A DNA stretch of 64,000 bases from Rhodomicrobium sp. R_RK_3 (GTDB lineage Bacteria; Pseudomonadota; Alphaproteobacteria; Rhizobiales; Rhodomicrobiaceae). The notes under the pieces were generated by a model, which saw only the letters and a list, made by a program, of their open reading frames with translations, did no database searches and was not told the origin of the DNA. The stretch spans positions 42,344 through 106,343 of the forward strand of contig NZ_MWLK01000022.1 in NCBI RefSeq assembly GCF_002198715.1, written 5' to 3'. The translations under genes and the position numbers were made by a program. Positions 49,632-59,096 of the stretch are shown piece by piece (within the stretch, counting starts at the first letter, position 1; each line of letters starts with the position of its first letter).

Positions 49632-50160
49632 CAAGGTGGTCACGCTGCGAACAATCTCCGGGTCAGGCGGTGGCTGAAGTCAGCGGCAATATCGGTGACG
49701 GCCGCGAGGGGCACCGCCAAAGGCACGGGCCGCAAGATCAACGCATCGAACGGCGTCGCGGTTCGATTATGAGTTTAGATCATAAAATTGGCGCGGCCGG
49801 AACAAACATTGCCTCACAGTTTTTTGAGGACGTGTAGAAGCTGTGTGCAGCGCGCCAAGGTGGCGAAGCAAAAGCGCGAGGGTCTAGGGCCGTTGGAAGT
49901 GCCGTTAAATTTCCGCTTTTCGGGAGGCGCAGGATGCAGCCATTAACAGGCCGCGCTAAAGTCCGGCGGGAATATGGTGTTTTGCGGTGTGCAGACGCCT
50001 CAAATTCGCCTAAAAAAGACGAAAGGTCTGATGACCTCTACGAGCAATCTGGCCGCGGGTTCTGGGGGAAGTACGCTGCCCGTGGCCGAGTTGCACTATT
50101 GTCGGGTGCCAATCTTTTTTACATTGGGGCGGCTTCCGAAACCGGGTGAGCCGAGGGTCG
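49632..50160. other. Leader of the opgGH operon, no gene supported
   Basis: This gap between the divergent dsbD-type gene and opgG contains a TTATGA/TCATAA inverted repeat (49767-49785) and CCTCA/TGAGG around a T-rich loop near 49812. An open frame from 49934 to 50149 has no family-like sequence. The promoters of both genes probably lie here. Confidence 0.5.
49767..49785. promoter_or_regulatory. Inverted repeat in the opgG-dsbD intergenic region
   Basis: TTATGA and TCATAA form 6-base arms around GTTTAGA in an AT-rich patch. It could be an operator for either divergent gene. Evidence is only the symmetry. Confidence 0.35.
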
Positions 50161-51717
50161 ATGAATCGTCGCAACTTCATCAAGCTTGCGAGCGCCTTTT
50201 CGCTTGCCAACGGGCTTTCCTCGGAAGGCGTGACCGCGCAGCCTGGCGAAGCGCCGGCGGTGCAGCCGGCCGCCCCGGGCGAGGAGACCCCGTTTTCCGA
50301 GCAGTGGCTGTTCACCAAGGCGGAAAATCTCGCCCGCCAGCCCTTTCAGGAGCCTGAGCTCAACCTGCCGTCCGAACTGGCCGATCTGGACCAGCAGCGC
50401 TATGGCGCCATCCAGTACAAGCCGGACGCCGCGGTCTGGAAGGACGACCCCTTCACCTTCGACCTGCAATTTTACCATACCGGCTTCCAGTATAAGGTGC
50501 CGGTCGACATGTTCCTGATCGACGGCGGCAATGCGCGGCCGTTCAGATATTCGCCGGGCCTGTTCGATTTCGGCGCGCCGCTCGCGACGCCGCCCGCCGA
50601 TTCCCAGGCCGGCTTCTCGGGCCTGCGGGTCCACGCCCCGGTACACCGCCAGGAATCGATGGACCCGTTCCTGTCGATCCAGGGCGCCAGCTATTTCCGC
50701 GCCGTCGCCACCGGCCAGGCTTTCGGCATCTCCGCGCGCGGCATCAGCATCAACACGGCACAGGCCTCGGGCGAGGAATTCCCCGCCTTCCGCGCGCTCT
50801 GGATCAAGAAGCCCGCCGAGGGCGAACGCCAGCTCCTCATCTATGCGCTGCTCGACGGACCGAGCCTCACCGGCGTCTATAAATTCCGCGCCGAGCCGGG
50901 CCGCTTCACCGTCATGGACATCGAGTGCACGCTGTTCCCGCGCAAAGTGCTGACCCATGTCGGCATCGCTCCTTTGACGAGCATGTATTTCTTCGGCTCG
51001 GCCGATTCAACCCGGCCGGACGACTACCGCCCGAATGTGCATAGCTCGGAGGGGCTGCAGATCTGGAACGGCGCCGGCGAGTGGATCTGGCGTCCGCTGG
51101 TCAATCCGGAGCGGCTGCAATATTCGGCTTTCTCCGACCGCGCGCCGAAGGGCTTTGGCCTCCTGCAGCGCAGCCGCGCCTTCTACGATTACCAGGATAT
51201 CGACGCCCGGTTCGGCGACCGTCCGAGCGTCTGGGTCGAGCCCGTCGGCGACTGGGGAGAAGGCGCCATCGACCTGATCGAATTGCCCACGCGAAGCGAG
51301 ATCTATGATAATATCGTCGCGTTCTGGCGGCCCAAGTCGCCTCTTGCTGAAATCGCTAGCCATTATTTCCGCTATCGCCTGCATTGGGGCTGGGAGCCGC
51401 CCGTCCGCAGCACGAGGGCTGAAGCCGTGCAGACCCGTGTCGGGTCGCGCGGATCGCCCGACGTGCGGCTCTTCGTGATCGACTTTGTCAGCGCCGGTTC
51501 ATGCAATGGCTGTAATGTGCCGCCATTCTCGGCCGATGTACGCGCCGGTGACGGCGAAATAAGAAATGTCGCCGTGCGGTTTAATGCGGCGACGGGAGGG
51601 CAGCGCGTCACGTTCGAGTTTCGGCCTGGGAGGGTTGAGCAAACGGATGTTCGCTGTGAGCTGAAGCAGAACGGCCAAGCGATTTCCGAAACCTGGATCT
51701 ATCGCTGGACAGCTTAA
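50161..51717 (+). CDS. opgG: OpgG-like periplasmic glucan biosynthesis protein
   Basis: It is the second OpgG/OpgD paralogue in the window. Shared blocks include FSGLRVHAPVH, QGASYFRAVATGQAFGISARG, WIWRPLVNPERLQYSAFSD and WVEPVGDWGEG. The N-terminus MNRRNFIKLASAF is a likely twin-arginine signal. Where the first paralogue reads HDSDG, this one reads HSSEG (about residue 297), which may alter the active site. It starts from ATG 50161, with GAGG four bases before it. The glucosyltransferase gene opgH follows 11 bases downstream, so the pair forms the synthesis operon. Confidence 0.9.
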   Translation: MNRRNFIKLASAFSLANGLSSEGVTAQPGEAPAVQPAAPGEETPFSEQWLFTKAENLARQPFQEPELNLPSELADLDQQRYGAIQYKPDAAVWKDDPFTFDLQFYHTGFQYKVPVDMFLIDGGNARPFRYSPGLFDFGAPLATPPADSQAGFSGLRVHAPVHRQESMDPFLSIQGASYFRAVATGQAFGISARGISINTAQASGEEFPAFRALWIKKPAEGERQLLIYALLDGPSLTGVYKFRAEPGRFTVMDIECTLFPRKVLTHVGIAPLTSMYFFGSADSTRPDDYRPNVHSSEGLQIWNGAGEWIWRPLVNPERLQYSAFSDRAPKGFGLLQRSRAFYDYQDIDARFGDRPSVWVEPVGDWGEGAIDLIELPTRSEIYDNIVAFWRPKSPLAEIASHYFRYRLHWGWEPPVRSTRAEAVQTRVGSRGSPDVRLFVIDFVSAGSCNGCNVPPFSADVRAGDGEIRNVAVRFNAATGGQRVTFEFRPGRVEQTDVRCELKQNGQAISETWIYRWTA

Positions 51718-51728
51718 GGCTCAACCCG

Positions 51729-53936
51729 ATGCAAGACATGAATACGGCATTTGCGGCGCCTCTACCGGCTGAAAAATCCGGCGAGAGGTTCCCACAGCAA
51801 GATCTCTGGCGCTTCGATCAGGCGAGCCGGCGCAAGGTCCGGCCCGACGTGAACGGCGTCTTCCGCCGCATCTTCGTGTTCGCGGGCATGGTCCTGCTCA
51901 CCGCCTATCTCACCAGCGAACTGATCCATGTGCTCAGCGTCGGCGGTTTCGCCGCGCTCGAAATCGTGCTGATCGGCCTGTTCGTCCTCAACATCGCCTG
52001 GCTGTCGCTTTCCTTCATGACGGCGCTGTCGGGTTTCCTCGTCGTGCTGTTCGGCATAAAGCCATCCATTGTCAGCATGGTCAGCGAGGAGGAGGCCAAG
52101 CACCTGCCCGAGGGGCGCACCGCCATTCTGGTCTGCACCTATAATGAGGCGCCGGAGCGCATCTTCGGCATGGCGCTCGCCACCATGAAGGAACTGGAGA
52201 CCTCCGGCCACGGCGAGAGTTTCGACGTCTTCATCGTCTCCGACACCACCGACCCCGACATCTGGGTGCATGAGGAGGCCGCCTTCAAGGCTGCCCGTGC
52301 CCGTCCCGGCAACGGCCCGCGCCTCTATTACCGCCGCCGCGCCGCCAATACCGGCAAGAAAGCCGGCAACATCGCCGACTGGTGCCGCCGCTGGGGCCCG
52401 GCCTACGACTATATGATCGTGCTCGACGCCGACAGCCTGATGACCGGCGCCTCGATCGTGCAGCTTGCCCATATCATGGACAAGAAGCCCGAGGCCGGGC
52501 TGATCCAGACCGTCCCCGTCACCATCGGGCGCAACACGCTGTTCGCCCGGATGCAGCAATTCGCCGGCGGCCTCTACGGCCCGATCATGGCCTCCGGCCT
52601 TGCCTTCTGGCATCGCGGCACCGGCAATTTCTGGGGACACAACGCCATCATTCGCGTCCGCGCCTTCATGGAATCGGCCGGACTGCCGCATCTGCCCGGC
52701 TCGCCGCCCTTCGGCGGCCAGATCCTCAGCCATGATTTCGTCGAGGCCGCGCTGATGTGCCGCCAGGGCTGGCGTGTCTGCATGGCGCCCGAGATCAAGG
52801 GCTCCTACGAGGAGATCCCGCCGAGCCTCATCGACTTCGCCACCCGCGACCGCCGCTGGTGCCAGGGCAATCTCCAGCACAGCCGCATCATCGGCGCCAA
52901 GGGCCTTCGGCCGATGAGCCGGGTGCATCTGGGCATGGGCATCATGGCCTATCTGTCGGCGCTGATCTGGCTGCTCTTCCTCATCACCGCGCTCCTGCTG
53001 ACCATCCAGCAGCTCACCGCCAAGCCGATCTATTTCGGTGGCGACCAGACGCTGTTCCCGACCTGGCCGATGCAGGACAGCGAGCGCGCCATGAGCCTCT
53101 TGTTCTGGACGCTGGCGCTGCTGCTTTTGCCAAAACTGTTCGGGCTGGTGCTGGCGCTGTTCAGCGGCGAGAAGCGGCGCGGCTTCGGCGGCATCTGGGG
53201 CCTCGGCAGCAGCGTCGTCATGGAGACGGTGCTGTCCTCGCTGTTCGCCCATGTCATGATGATGGTGCAGTCGGCTGCCATCTTCGACATTTTGCGCGGC
53301 CGCGACAGCGGCTGGAACCCGCAGCGGCGCGATGACGGCTCGCTGCCGATGAGCTGGGTGGTGCGCTATCACCTCTTGCACATGACCATCGGCACCGCGC
53401 TCGGCATCTTCACCTTCATGGCCTCGCTGCCGCTCTTCCTCTGGCTGCTGCCGGCGACGCTCGGCCTTGCCTTGTCCGGCCCGCTTTCGGCGGCGTCGGC
53501 GACGCGCAAATGGGGCGAACGCTTCAAATATCTCGGCATCTTCGCCATCGCCGAAGAACGCCGCCCGCCCGCCATCCTTTTGTCCGCGCGCAAGCATTCC
53601 GAAATGCTGGCGCTGGACTTCTCCAAACACGAGGCGATCTCGCAGCTTGCCGGCGACCCGCAATTGCGCCATCTGCATCGCCAGCTCATCGAGCTTCAGC
53701 CCGTTACCCGCGAGGCGCGCATTTCGCCGAGCCTCGCCGTCGGCCGCGCCAAGCTGGAGATTTCCGCCGATCTGCCGGAATTGCTGCGCCTTTTGAAGCC
53801 GAACGAGAAGGCGGCGCTGCTCTCCGATCCGGAAAGCCTTGCCCGGCTCGAGCAGATGATCCTGCCCTTCATCCCGCCGCCCCCGGCCGCGAAACCGGCC
53901 GAAACCGTGGCCGTGCATGTGGGCGAGCGCATCTGA
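51729..53936 (+). CDS. opgH: Glucan glucosyltransferase OpgH
   Basis: This inner-membrane family 2 glycosyltransferase makes the beta-1,2-glucan backbone from UDP-glucose and exports it. CTYNEAPERIFG starts the catalytic domain near residue 130, DADSLM supplies the DxD motif near 235, and RRWCQGNLQHSR is the Q/RxxRW-type acceptor site near 375. About eight hydrophobic helices lie at both ends. At 735 residues it is shorter than E. coli MdoH, mainly at the N-terminus. It works with the opgG product encoded just upstream. Confidence 0.94.
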   Translation: MQDMNTAFAAPLPAEKSGERFPQQDLWRFDQASRRKVRPDVNGVFRRIFVFAGMVLLTAYLTSELIHVLSVGGFAALEIVLIGLFVLNIAWLSLSFMTALSGFLVVLFGIKPSIVSMVSEEEAKHLPEGRTAILVCTYNEAPERIFGMALATMKELETSGHGESFDVFIVSDTTDPDIWVHEEAAFKAARARPGNGPRLYYRRRAANTGKKAGNIADWCRRWGPAYDYMIVLDADSLMTGASIVQLAHIMDKKPEAGLIQTVPVTIGRNTLFARMQQFAGGLYGPIMASGLAFWHRGTGNFWGHNAIIRVRAFMESAGLPHLPGSPPFGGQILSHDFVEAALMCRQGWRVCMAPEIKGSYEEIPPSLIDFATRDRRWCQGNLQHSRIIGAKGLRPMSRVHLGMGIMAYLSALIWLLFLITALLLTIQQLTAKPIYFGGDQTLFPTWPMQDSERAMSLLFWTLALLLLPKLFGLVLALFSGEKRRGFGGIWGLGSSVVMETVLSSLFAHVMMMVQSAAIFDILRGRDSGWNPQRRDDGSLPMSWVVRYHLLHMTIGTALGIFTFMASLPLFLWLLPATLGLALSGPLSAASATRKWGERFKYLGIFAIAEERRPPAILLSARKHSEMLALDFSKHEAISQLAGDPQLRHLHRQLIELQPVTREARISPSLAVGRAKLEISADLPELLRLLKPNEKAALLSDPESLARLEQMILPFIPPPPAAKPAETVAVHVGERI

Positions 53937-54049: not shown

Positions 54050-54427
54050 ATGACCGATGTCCTTAGCGTCCTCTGGACGATCGTCAGCTTCATTGTCGGC
54101 ATTCTCTGGGGATTGATCTGGTTCATCCTCAGCGACCTCCTGTCGACGCTGCTCTGGATCTGCATCGCCGTCTGGCTCGCCTTCGTGCTGCGTTACCGCA
54201 GCTTCGGCCACGGCTCGCTCGCGGTGCTGCGCTGGGGCCGCTACGGCCTGGCCTTCCTCTGGCGCTGGATCAGAGGGCGTCCCGGCGATGCGCCCATCGT
54301 CATGCCGCAGCCGCAGACGCGGATCGTGCGCGAATATCAGCGCCGCATCCCGCTCGGCTACGCCTCGGTTTCCGAGCAGATCAACATGCTGATCGTGCTG
54401 CTCATCATCGTGATGGCGCATGTCTGA
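54050..54427 (+). CDS. Small membrane protein downstream of opgH
   Basis: The 125-residue product has two or three Trp-rich hydrophobic segments at the N-terminus (VLWTIVSFIVGILWGLIWFI and the next), a basic central region (RWIRGRPGD) and a C-terminal hydrophobic anchor (MLIVLLIIVMAHV). I do not recognise it. It lies 113 bases after opgH on the same strand and could be part of the glucan operon. The start has only a weak AGGAA upstream. Confidence 0.75.
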   Translation: MTDVLSVLWTIVSFIVGILWGLIWFILSDLLSTLLWICIAVWLAFVLRYRSFGHGSLAVLRWGRYGLAFLWRWIRGRPGDAPIVMPQPQTRIVREYQRRIPLGYASVSEQINMLIVLLIIVMAHV

Positions 54428-54757: not shown

Positions 54758-55174
54758 ATGAGGCGGGAATTTATTCTTGCGGGTGTTCTTGTCTTGTTGT
54801 CCTGCGACACGTCCGTTGCGGACCTGATCTATAGGCCGATCAATCCGTCATTCGGCGGCGAACCCTTCAACTCCGCCCATCTCCTGAACCTGGCGACCGC
54901 TCAGAAGCAGTTCAAGGAACACGAGGAATCATCGTCCTCGCAAAGCACGTCCGAGCGCTTCATCGCCATGCTGCAATCGCGGCTCTATTCCTCTCTCGCC
55001 GGCCAGGTGGCCGATGCGATCTTCGGCGAGGATGCCCAGCCCAGCGGTACGATCGTGTTCGACAACCAGCAGATCACCTTTATCAATACCGGCACGCAAA
55101 TTCAGATGACCGTTACCGATTTCAGTACGGGAAAGGTCACCAACATCACTATCCCGACCTTGTCCACGGAATAG
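54758..55174 (+). CDS. csgF: Curli assembly protein CsgF
   Basis: CsgF sits at the cell surface and couples the CsgG pore to curli nucleation. After a signal peptide (ending near SVA) comes the conserved region DLIYRPINPSFGGEPFNSAH, followed by LLNLATAQKQF, as in other CsgF proteins. The C-terminal half is rich in Ser, Thr and Asn. At 138 residues it matches the family. GGAG lies nine bases before the ATG. csgG follows 100 bases later on the same strand. Confidence 0.93.
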   Translation: MRREFILAGVLVLLSCDTSVADLIYRPINPSFGGEPFNSAHLLNLATAQKQFKEHEESSSSQSTSERFIAMLQSRLYSSLAGQVADAIFGEDAQPSGTIVFDNQQITFINTGTQIQMTVTDFSTGKVTNITIPTLSTE

Positions 55175-55274
55175 CCCTGCGCAGGCAGATTTCGCCGTCC
55201 TGTCCGCGAGTCGATCGCGTTCGGGCCCGGATCGAGTTCTATCGGCGTGAAGGTCTTACAAGGCAAGGCAGCAG

Positions 55275-56564
55275 ATGCAACGGATGACAAAGCTTGGCCA
55301 ATTGGGGATGGCCGCCGCCCTTGTCTTGGGGCTGGCGGGCTGTAGCACCCAGGATATCGCCGAGGAAACGCTCTCGGCGGGCATTCTGCCGCCGGTTATG
55401 AATCCCCTCACCGAGGCGAATCTGAGCCTGCGCGAGCTGCCGCCCCCGTCCCGCAAAGTCGTGGTGGCCGTCTACAATTATGCCGATCAGACCGGGCAGT
55501 TCAAACCGTCCGAGACCACGCAGACCCTCTCCAAGGCCGTCACCCAGGGCGCCACCTCGATCCTGATCAAGGCGCTGCAAGATGTCGGGCAGGGGAGCTG
55601 GTTCACCGTCGTCGAGCGGGAGAAGATCGACAACCTCTTGAAGGAACGCAAGATCATCACGCAGATGCGGATGACCTATCTCGGCGAGACCCGGATCGAT
55701 CCCAATGCGCTGCCGCCTCTGCTCTTTGCCGGCATCATCTTCGAGGGCGGCATCATCGGCTTCGACAGCAACATCCAGACCGGCGGTCTCGGCGCCCGGC
55801 TGTTGGGCATCGGCGGCGACCTGAAATACCGGCTGGACACCATCACCATCTATCTGCGGGCGGTCAGCACCAAGACCGGGCAGGTGGTGGGCTCGGTCAC
55901 CACGCATAAGACCATCGCCTCCTACGGCCTGCAGGGCGGCGTGTTCAAATTCATCGCCGTCGACAAGATCCTCGAGGGCGAGGCCGGCTTCACCAAGAAC
56001 GAGCCGGAGCAGCTTGCCGTGCAGCAGGCGATCGAGAAGGCGGTCTACGCCATCCTCATCGAAGGCGCCGAGACCGATGTCTGGTCCTTCGCCGATGCCG
56101 CCAGTCAGGCAAGGCTGATCCATGAATATAAGTCGGAGCAGTACGAGGCGCGCCAATTCGCCAGCAACGGCAATCCGGCGACCGCCAACGCCAAGGTCGC
56201 CACGGCTGCAACCGCCACCCCGGCGCCGGTGAAGACCGCCGGCAAGGAGGGCGCCGCCCCGGCCGCTCCAGCGGCGACGGCGGCGACGGGCAGCGGCCCG
56301 GTCGCCGGCCCCGGCGGTTCGGCCCCGCCGCCTGCCGCCTCGGCGGCCAAGGAACCGCTGGCCCCGGCCGCTCCCGGCGCGGCGCCGGCGGCGAGCGGGG
56401 GCGGATCATGGAAGCCATCGATCTCCAGCCTTGAGCCGCGCCCGCGCGACGCGCCCGGCGGCAGCGGTTCCGCGCGCCGCGAAAGGCGCATGCCCGGTGG
56501 AGGATGGGCCACCACCCCCGTCACGGTGAAGGAAAGATTCGAACATGCGGTCACCAGCAATTGA
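55275..56564 (+). CDS. csgG: Curli secretion pore CsgG with long C-terminal extension
   Basis: The first 285 residues form CsgG, the outer-membrane lipoprotein channel through which curlins are exported. It has a lipoprotein signal ending LGLAGC (Cys23) and VVAVYNYADQTGQFKPSE. FTVVEREKIDNLLKERKI, IIFEGGIIGFDSN and YLRAVSTKTGQVVGSV also fit the family. The remaining roughly 140 residues are Ala/Pro/Gly-rich (for example APVKTAGKEGAAPAAP) and end in a basic segment. Standard CsgG proteins stop near 277 residues, so this tail is unusual. It would extend into the periplasm. Confidence 0.94.
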   Translation: MQRMTKLGQLGMAAALVLGLAGCSTQDIAEETLSAGILPPVMNPLTEANLSLRELPPPSRKVVVAVYNYADQTGQFKPSETTQTLSKAVTQGATSILIKALQDVGQGSWFTVVEREKIDNLLKERKIITQMRMTYLGETRIDPNALPPLLFAGIIFEGGIIGFDSNIQTGGLGARLLGIGGDLKYRLDTITIYLRAVSTKTGQVVGSVTTHKTIASYGLQGGVFKFIAVDKILEGEAGFTKNEPEQLAVQQAIEKAVYAILIEGAETDVWSFADAASQARLIHEYKSEQYEARQFASNGNPATANAKVATAATATPAPVKTAGKEGAAPAAPAATAATGSGPVAGPGGSAPPPAASAAKEPLAPAAPGAAPAASGGGSWKPSISSLEPRPRDAPGGSGSARRERRMPGGGWATTPVTVKERFEHAVTSN

Positions 56565-56736
56565 CCCCGGCGCCAACGCGCCGAACGCGACCGGTTTCTC
56601 GCCTTCTGGCGAAGAAAGGGGAGGCAGAGACATTCCGGATCTGGACTGAATGTCGCTGCTTCTCGAACTAGAAGGGCAACAATGCCCTCACCCCCGGGAT
56701 GCACAGCGTGCCTCCCTTAAATTAATGGAGAATGAT

Positions 56737-57246
56737 ATGAAGAATTTTGTTGCAGTTTCTCTTTTCGCTATGCTTGCCGCAACGCCCGCTCTGGCCGACG
56801 GAAACACCAACACGTCGAATATCGATCAGATCGGCGCGAATCTGGTGGCCACCGCGACCCAGGAAGGCAGCGGCAATACCAGCGTCTCCAATATCGATCA
56901 GGGCCTGTTCGGCGTGGGCGACAACCTGCTTGCCACCGTCACCCAGGGCGGCACCGACAATGTGCAGGAAGCTCACATCAAGCAGAACAATTCCGACAAT
57001 ACCGGCGAAATCAGCCAGGGCGGTGATGGCAGCACCAATTATGGCTTTATCGGCCAGGACGGCATCGAGAACGAGGCCACTCTGACTCAGGATGGCGTCG
57101 GTACCTCGAACAGCGCCGAGATCCATCAGTTCGGCACTGGCGGCCTGAACGTCGCCACGGTCACCCAGGGCGGCGACGCCAATTTCAATGTCGCCGGCGT
57201 CGGCCAAAATGGCAGCGGCCTGACCGCGACGGTCAACCAGCATTAA
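56737..57246 (+). CDS. Curlin-repeat protein 1 (CsgA/CsgB-like)
   Basis: The 169-residue secreted protein has a signal peptide ending ALA-DGN near residue 20. About six imperfect repeats follow, of the curlin type Q-x-G-x-(G/D)-N-x(3)-A-x(3)-Q (for example TATQEGSGNTSVSNIDQ and ATVTQGGDANFNVAGVGQ). Such repeats stack into amyloid beta-solenoids that form surface fibres. GGAG lies six bases before the ATG at 56737. It is probably a structural subunit exported by CsgG. Whether it is the major subunit or the nucleator cannot be told. Confidence 0.9.
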   Translation: MKNFVAVSLFAMLAATPALADGNTNTSNIDQIGANLVATATQEGSGNTSVSNIDQGLFGVGDNLLATVTQGGTDNVQEAHIKQNNSDNTGEISQGGDGSTNYGFIGQDGIENEATLTQDGVGTSNSAEIHQFGTGGLNVATVTQGGDANFNVAGVGQNGSGLTATVNQH

Positions 57247-57263
57247 GCGGCAGACCAGCCAAT

Positions 57264-57289
57264 CCCAGCCGGCCTCCGGGCCGGCTGGG
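57264..57289 (+). terminator. Strong hairpin between the two curlin-like genes
   Basis: CCCAGCCGGC and GCCGGCTGGG form perfect 10-base arms around CTCCGG, 18 bases beyond the stop of curlin-like gene 1. There is no T-run directly after it. It could attenuate transcription into the second gene or protect the upstream message. Confidence 0.6.
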
Positions 57290-57290
57290 C

Positions 57291-57392
57291 CTAGATCATG
57301 ATGATTTTGGGTTGGATCGATCTAAAATCGTGGACGGTGATCTCGTTCTTAAATTTCGAGCGGGATGACCATTTTACCTCATCCCGCTCCAG
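57291..57392. repeat. Dispersed repeat family R4, copy 1
   Basis: GATCATGATGATTTTGGGTT opens the element, and GAGCGGGATGA-CCATTTTACC-TCATCCCGCTC (arms 57358-57368 and 57379-57389) closes it. The words ATTTTGG, GGATC and GAGCGGGATGAGGTAAA recur in inverse order near 61112-61216. A degenerate third trace may lie near 14855-14890. Confidence 0.7.
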
Positions 57393-57429
57393 GGTGAACG
57401 AACGAAGCCGACTTCGGCAGGAAGGGTGC

Positions 57430-58143
57430 ATGCGCATGACCAGCAAGCCTTCGCTCCTCGTGATCTCCGTTCTTGCCGCCGCCGTGCCCAGCCCGGCCGG
57501 CGCCGCCGAGAACATCTCTTCGATCGAACAGATCGGCACCGATCAGATCGCCGAAATCGCGCAGCAGGGGACTCTCCGGCTCAACAGCGCCCGGGCGTTC
57601 CAGTCGGGCAGCGGCAATGCGGCGGCGATCGCGCAGGACGGCACCGGCGCCGCCGGCAGAAACCTTGCCGGCACCTATCAGGCGGGCACGGGCAACCAGG
57701 CGCAAGTCGATCAGTCCGGCGCCGACCTCGCCAATGAGGGGCTGATTTCGCAGACCGGCGACGGCAACGCCGCCTCCATCGAGCAGGGCGGCGCGGGCAG
57801 CGTCAATTTCGCCGGCATCCTGCAGCAGGGCGTCCTGAACAATGCCAGCATCAGCCAGAACGCCGTCGCCGACCAGACCCGCCGCAACTATGCCGCCATC
57901 GGCCAGACCGGCAGCGGCAATGCCGCCGCGATCGTCCAGAACGGCAGCGGCCACGAGGCCGAGATCCTGCAGCAAGGCTCGGATAATAGCGGCACGATCG
58001 AGCAAAATGACAGCGACCAGAAGGCCGTTCTTAAGCAATTCGGCGATAATAATAGCTGGTCGATCCAGCAGTCCGGTCCCCCTGGCGGGATCACGGTGGA
58101 GCAGTTCGGTTCGGGCGGCGGAGTGGTCATCACCCAATTCTGA
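57430..58143 (+). CDS. Curlin-repeat protein 2 (CsgA/CsgB-like)
   Basis: The 237-residue protein has a signal peptide ending AGA-AEN near residue 26 and about eight curlin-type repeats (FQSGSGNAAAIAQDG, YQAGTGNQAQVDQSG, ISQTGDGNAASIEQGG and others), closing with VEQFGSGGGVVITQF. It is more Ala-rich and more regular than the first curlin. Together the two could be fibre subunit and nucleator, as CsgA and CsgB are. AGGAAGG precedes the ATG at 57430, and another in-frame ATG lies at 57436. Confidence 0.88.
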   Translation: MRMTSKPSLLVISVLAAAVPSPAGAAENISSIEQIGTDQIAEIAQQGTLRLNSARAFQSGSGNAAAIAQDGTGAAGRNLAGTYQAGTGNQAQVDQSGADLANEGLISQTGDGNAASIEQGGAGSVNFAGILQQGVLNNASISQNAVADQTRRNYAAIGQTGSGNAAAIVQNGSGHEAEILQQGSDNSGTIEQNDSDQKAVLKQFGDNNSWSIQQSGPPGGITVEQFGSGGGVVITQF

Positions 58144-58202
58144 CCGGACCGCCGGCCCTATCGGCCTTCTCCGTGACTGCGGTGCATTCCGGAGATTATC
58201 CG

Positions 58203-58613
58203 ATGGTAATGGTTTGGCGTTTGATCGGCATCGGCTTCGTCGCCATCGGCCTGCAAGCCGGCGATGCGGAGGCTTCGCAGCCCCGCCGCCGTGCCAAGGC
58301 GCCGAATTTCCACGGCATCGCCTATGTACAGCAGGTGCCGCGCGCCGCTTGGGCGCATCGCCGGGTGGTCTATAGCCGGGAATTCGAGGCGCTCTATACG
58401 GGGCCCGAGGATGCGGTGGCTTATCGCCGGGCGCGGCGCAACCCCAAGAGCTTCCTGGACGCGCTGCTGGAAGTGCCGAACCCCGATACGCGGCCCATTC
58501 TCTTCGATCTCGGCATCCCCGCCGTCGACGACGTGCCGCCGATCGCGCTGCTCTACGGTCTCCAGCGCCACCCGCGCCATGAATTTTTCCGCCGCTTCGG
58601 TCCGCGCCGATAG
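58203..58613 (+). CDS. Small exported basic protein at the end of the curli operon
   Basis: I do not recognise this 136-residue protein. It has a short hydrophobic signal ending AEA and a basic region (PRRRAKAPNFHGIAYVQQVP). Tyr- and Arg-rich sequence follows (REFEALYTGPEDAVAYRRA), and the C-terminus RHEFFRRFGPRR is strongly basic. No curlin repeats are present. GGAG lies eight bases before the ATG. It begins 59 bases after the second curlin gene on the same strand, so a role in fibre assembly or attachment is possible but unproven. Confidence 0.75.
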   Translation: MVMVWRLIGIGFVAIGLQAGDAEASQPRRRAKAPNFHGIAYVQQVPRAAWAHRRVVYSREFEALYTGPEDAVAYRRARRNPKSFLDALLEVPNPDTRPILFDLGIPAVDDVPPIALLYGLQRHPRHEFFRRFGPRR

Positions 58614-58826
58614 GCCGGGGCGGAGAGCGGGGCGCGGCTCGCGTGCGCTTTCCGCTTATGCATCAAGCCTGTGCGCCCGCCGACCCCGGTTTCCGCCAGG
58701 GATTGTAGCGCAAATTGCAAAGATCCCTTCGCTACCACTGTAGATAAACGCTCTTCCGCCGGCCTGCATTCAATGCTATTGCGGCGCCGCACGGTGCGCC
58801 ACGCCGGGCCAATCGAAGGAGCGCGC

Positions 58827-59096
58827 GTGAATTCGGCATGGATCGACCTGGTCGGAGCACTCGCTGCGCTCCTGACCACCACGGCATTCTTCCCGCAGGC
58901 CATCAAAACCCTTCGCACCCGTGACATTAGCGGCCTGTCGCTGACCATGTATACGCTGCTGGTGACGGGTGTCGCGCTCTGGCTGCTCTACGGGCTTTTC
59001 CTCGGCAATTGGCCGCTGATCCTGGCCAATGCGGTCGCGCTCGTCCCCCAAGGCCTGGTCATGGCGATGATCTTGCGGGCGCAGCGCTCGAAGTGA
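58827..59096 (+). CDS. SemiSWEET-type sugar transporter
   Basis: The 89-residue protein has three transmembrane helices. The PQ-loop motif lies in TTTAFFPQAIKTLRTRDISGLS near residue 25, as in bacterial SemiSWEETs. These work as dimers that move sugars down their gradient. The start is GTG at 58827 with AAGGAG five bases before it, although a longer in-frame extension exists upstream. Sugar specificity cannot be told. Confidence 0.88.
   Translation: MNSAWIDLVGALAALLTTTAFFPQAIKTLRTRDISGLSLTMYTLLVTGVALWLLYGLFLGNWPLILANAVALVPQGLVMAMILRAQRSK

Follow-up and report, generated by a model that had tools for sequence, protein, structure and literature searches.

Curli are sticky protein fibers carried on the surface of bacterial cells. 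In Escherichia coli, the curli genes form two divergent operons, csgDEFG and csgBAC. For Alphaproteobacteria, csgFG-csgA/B(-csgH) operons have been described in which csgF, csgG and several curlins share one strand and csgH always adjoins csgA/B, and the absence of csgC, csgD and csgE from the class was published in 2012 (Dueholm et al. 2012, PMC3521004). The Rhodopseudomonas palustris protein CsgH shares its fold with CsgC and inhibits the assembly of E. coli CsgA into amyloid (PMC4838910).

We analyzed a curli locus in a 64,000-nucleotide stretch of DNA (hereafter the window) from Rhodomicrobium sp. R_RK_3. It shares with the described alphaproteobacterial operons both the csgF, csgG and curlin genes on one strand and the lack of csgC, csgD and csgE, but differs from them in that csgH stands alone on another contig and that a gene for a small secreted protein, ORF5, fills the slot after the curlins. 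With the E. coli system it has CsgF, CsgG and curlin-repeat subunits in common, whereas its genes lie on one strand, CsgD, CsgE and CsgC are missing, and CsgG carries a long C-terminal tail. We read the locus as a standard alphaproteobacterial curli (type VIII secretion) operon, with a probability of about 93%, on the basis of the gene identities, layout, absences and distribution observed below, where the recurrence of a hairpin is shown as well.

Genes of the curli locus

Combining the list of open reading frames with a reading of the sequence, we found five genes at 54758-58613 (Table 1). The order csgF-csgG-curlin-curlin-small secreted protein on a single strand, as given in the initial annotation, was borne out by the reading frames and, for the first four genes, by Pfam. 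In CsgF, the DLIYRPINPSFGG N-terminal motif comes after a signal peptide, and the protein aligns along its length with E. coli CsgF of known structure (6l7a). CsgG, by family the curli export lipoprotein of the outer membrane, has the lipobox LAGC; its residues 19-279 align with solved CsgG (6lqh/3x2r), and a Pro/Ala-rich tail of ~150 aa forms its C-terminus. Both curlins combine a signal peptide, judged by eye, with curlin repeats. The starts listed for curlin 1 and ORF5 are corrected ones, at which an ATG is followed by a signal-peptide-like stretch (also by eye). NCBIfam agreed in kind for csgF, csgG and the curlins, while its equivalog cut-offs were reached by none, which is what one would expect of proteins only distantly related to those of enterobacteria. 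The locus holds three features of curli/type VIII secretion: a CsgG pore lipoprotein, curlin-repeat subunits with signal peptides, and CsgF. The two curlins had been described as long repeat proteins; at the lengths in Table 1 they are in fact short among alphaproteobacterial curlins, which reach ~900 aa in the related operons that we compared.

Table 1. Coordinates of the features discussed. Positions are those of the window unless another locus (L) or contig (C) is named.
Feature	Position	Strand	Description
OpgG + OpgH	50146-53936		upstream of csgF
ORF	54050-54427		125 aa, membrane-like, no family match
csgF	54758-55174	+	138 aa, full length; Pfam PF10614 CsgF, E 2.5e-34
csgG	55275-56564	+	429 aa; Pfam PF03783 CsgG, E 8.5e-57
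curlin 1	56737-57246	+	169 aa; Pfam PF07012, 5 curlin-repeat stretches, E 1e-15
G+C-rich hairpin	57264-57289	+	11-bp perfect stem, between curlin 1 and curlin 2
curlin 2	57430-58143	+	237 aa; Pfam PF07012, 6 curlin-repeat stretches, E 4.6e-23
ORF5	58203-58613	+	136 aa, small basic secreted protein (predicted)
ORF	58671-59096		downstream of operon; resembles SemiSWEET/PQ-loop type membrane protein (by eye)
third curlin gene	C25 74745-74894 (L069 8269-9204)		unlinked to operon
ORF5 homologue	L060 10945-11709		ORF5-like N-terminal part, curlin-like repeats at C-terminus
short CsgF	L061 585-884		
short CsgF	L062 7506-7790		
short CsgF	L063 2099-2407		
short CsgF	L064 5830-6150		
short CsgF	L065 8117-8401		
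short CsgF	L066 8001-8264		
short CsgF	L067 7583-7858		
CsgE of Bacteroidota	L143 6842-7570		CsgC/CsgH-like N-terminal stretch
CsgE of Bacteroidota	L145 6717-7451		CsgC/CsgH-like N-terminal stretch
CsgE of Bacteroidota	L154 6699-7460		CsgC/CsgH-like N-terminal stretch

The OpgGH genes, said by the initial annotation to lie directly before the curli genes, are indeed upstream of csgF, but a 125-aa ORF and 330 bp of non-coding DNA intervene. This neighborhood is not conserved, since no OpgG or OpgH homologue was found near csg in any of 98 related loci, and a functional link between Opg and curli was dismissed on that ground. The intervening ORF likewise had no homologue in the 98 loci. On the other side of the operon, a reading frame resembling a SemiSWEET/PQ-loop type membrane protein follows.

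Search of the genome for the missing genes

Profile searches of the whole genome (5.79 Mb in 39 contigs, 99.5% complete) found the operon's csgG as the only gene of the CsgG family, and no match to CsgE or to CsgC. For CsgD, NF007505 returned 13 matches across the genome, which we dismissed as generic LuxR-type matches far under the cut-off (best 58.6 bits, cut-off 250). The initial annotation had seen no csgD, csgE or csgC in the window, and the search for all three through the rest of the genome upheld this. As no specific match exists anywhere in a genome of this completeness, the absence of csgC, csgD and csgE is real within the sensitivity of the profiles used.

By contrast with these absences from the operon's surroundings and beyond, a clear CsgH, the form that CsgC-like chaperones take in Alphaproteobacteria, is encoded away from the operon on contig C1 (E 3.3e-25); none is hidden in any reading frame of the 64-kb window. 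A third curlin gene lies on contig C25 (Table 1), and the stretches surrounding csgH and this curlin hold no other csg genes. Because csgH lies outside the operon, family function is what ties it to the system, and CsgH would by analogy probably fill the role of the CsgC chaperone.

Layout across Alphaproteobacteria

We assembled 98 loci, namely 18 stretches from this genome, its family and its order, together with 80 named loci. Setting aside duplicates, loci from outside Alphaproteobacteria and those that lacked csgG left 76 distinct ones. The order csgF-csgG followed by at least two curlins on the same strand recurred in 53 of these 76 alphaproteobacterial csgG loci, a proportion that is not an unbiased rate for the class, as the loci were chosen by CsgG similarity or membership of the same order. 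CsgH followed further downstream in 22 of the 53, with none within the fetched DNA in the other 31. One of the 53 is labeled Flavobacteriaceae (L108); its likeness to Erythrobacter loci suggests that it is probably a mis-binned contig.

A profile search of 385 alphaproteobacterial genomes, in which the E. coli control was positive, detected CsgE in none and CsgF in seven. Hence, csgF-csgG-curlins without csgC, csgD or csgE is the usual state of the class and not peculiar to this organism. The layout had been taken for an unusual one; with the order this widespread, CsgE at 0/385 and the absences already in print (PMC3521004), that lead proves false and is removed. Two small leads are left in its place, an unnamed curli-linked protein family (ORF5) and a hairpin that recurs among operons and might fix the ratio of subunits inside one operon.

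ORF5, a small secreted protein

ORF5 matched nothing in Pfam, NCBIfam or PDB, but belongs to an unnamed family present in two of eight genomes of the bacterial family, its own (G000) and one other (G139). These two are also the sole CsgF carriers among the seven family members sampled for CsgF. In G139 the order is csgF-csgG-curlin-curlin, then two ORF5 homologues, then a CsgH-like gene. One of the two homologues (in L060, Table 1) joins an ORF5-like N-terminal part to curlin-like repeats that are visible in the sequence, although their Pfam curlin score of 18.8 bits falls below the cut-off of 20.7. SZAS-18 (L078), whose CsgG is the nearest in the set of named genomes, also encodes a small secreted protein at the ORF5 position. 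This protein was the top non-member in the ORF5 profile search, and its weak score (E 0.19) makes homology to ORF5 no more than suggestive. Across the class, beyond its own genome, ORF5 gave only marginal, short or frame-broken matches, which we took as chance and did not count as a wider distribution. From synteny and the one fusion to curlin-like repeats, we infer that the secreted ORF5 protein probably has an accessory role and attaches to the fiber.

A recurrent hairpin after the first curlin gene

The hairpin between the two curlin genes begins 17 nt past the curlin 1 stop codon and has no T-run behind it. The RNA of positions 57247-57310 (64 nt) folds at -35.9 kcal/mol (z -3.7), and 0 of 200 shuffles were as good. 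The hairpin was seen in the window first and tested afterwards, in a survey of mechanically called reading frames that folded 120 nt past each stop codon against dinucleotide-preserving shuffles (p<=0.02). A hairpin followed the first curlin in 29 of 54 operons, our own included, compared to 4/54 after csgG and 0/54 after csgF (together 4 of 108 positions), 6/51 after the last curlin and 15/39 after middle curlins. Fisher tests gave 3e-13 for the first curlin versus csgF/csgG and 4e-6 versus the last curlin, for operons that are not phylogenetically independent. The stem sequences differ among genera; most lack a T-run, but a few resemble intrinsic terminators. A limited literature search found no description of stem-loops in curli operons. 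The hairpin may stabilize or attenuate the message, and probably sets the ratio of the curlin messages.

Alternative readings and the likely working of the system

The absence of CsgE and the presence of two long repeat proteins had been taken to suggest a variant export or nucleation scheme. If such a scheme were peculiar to this lineage, parts of the operon, for example the CsgG tail or ORF5, would replace CsgE; the tail is indeed long compared to the median of 67 aa in related alphaproteobacterial proteins, and ORF5 co-occurs with csgFG within the bacterial family. We nevertheless consider this unlikely, as tail length does not follow the presence of CsgE: Bacteroidota loci with CsgE in the operon have CsgG tails of ~190 aa, while in Alphaproteobacteria, where CsgE is missing, many CsgG tails measure 20-50, and the tail was dismissed as a CsgE substitute for this reason. 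Furthermore, CsgE is gone from the whole class sample, whereas ORF5 occurs in few genomes. The loading of CsgG in the absence of CsgE concerns the class as a whole, not the R_RK_3 locus in particular.

Alternatively, the system might be degenerate, with csgH lost from a decaying locus, given that a CsgH-like gene directly follows the ORF5 position in G139 and SZAS-18 and is missing there here. The intact reading frames of all operon genes, the regular repeats, the retained hairpin and the strong CsgH elsewhere in the genome make decay very improbable.

For the standard operon that we favor, we infer the following working. Sec would carry curlin 1 and curlin 2 into the periplasm, where CsgH, encoded elsewhere in the genome, would keep them unfolded. 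The unfolded curlins would then cross the CsgG pore, its outer mouth narrowed by the CsgF N-terminus, and polymerize on the cell surface as amyloid, one curlin probably being the main subunit while the other nucleates the fiber or adds a second kind of subunit. CsgE would be dispensable, or substituted by some other factor, as in the whole class. ORF5 would probably join the fiber, and the hairpin would probably tune the balance of curlin messages. A bolder proposal, that ORF5 founds a new family of fiber-riding curli accessory proteins and that alphaproteobacterial curli operons use a hairpin behind the first curlin gene to set their curlin ratio, is one that we offer only tentatively in its joint form.

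Variant CsgF and CsgE proteins in related loci

Among genomes of the same order, we noted seven short CsgF proteins of 87-106 aa (Table 1) that keep an NPSFGG-type N-terminal motif while the rest of CsgF is gone. A csgG lies near five of them; for L066 and L067 the fetched stretch showed none. Such short forms would part pore plugging from other CsgF roles.

Three CsgE proteins of Bacteroidota carry a CsgC/CsgH-like N-terminal stretch. Their CsgE match is at E 1e-9 to 2e-13, and their Tafi-CsgC match is weak (0.0004 in L145, 0.07 in L143, none in L154). Judging from this arrangement, they may possibly be natural fusions of a chaperone with an adaptor.
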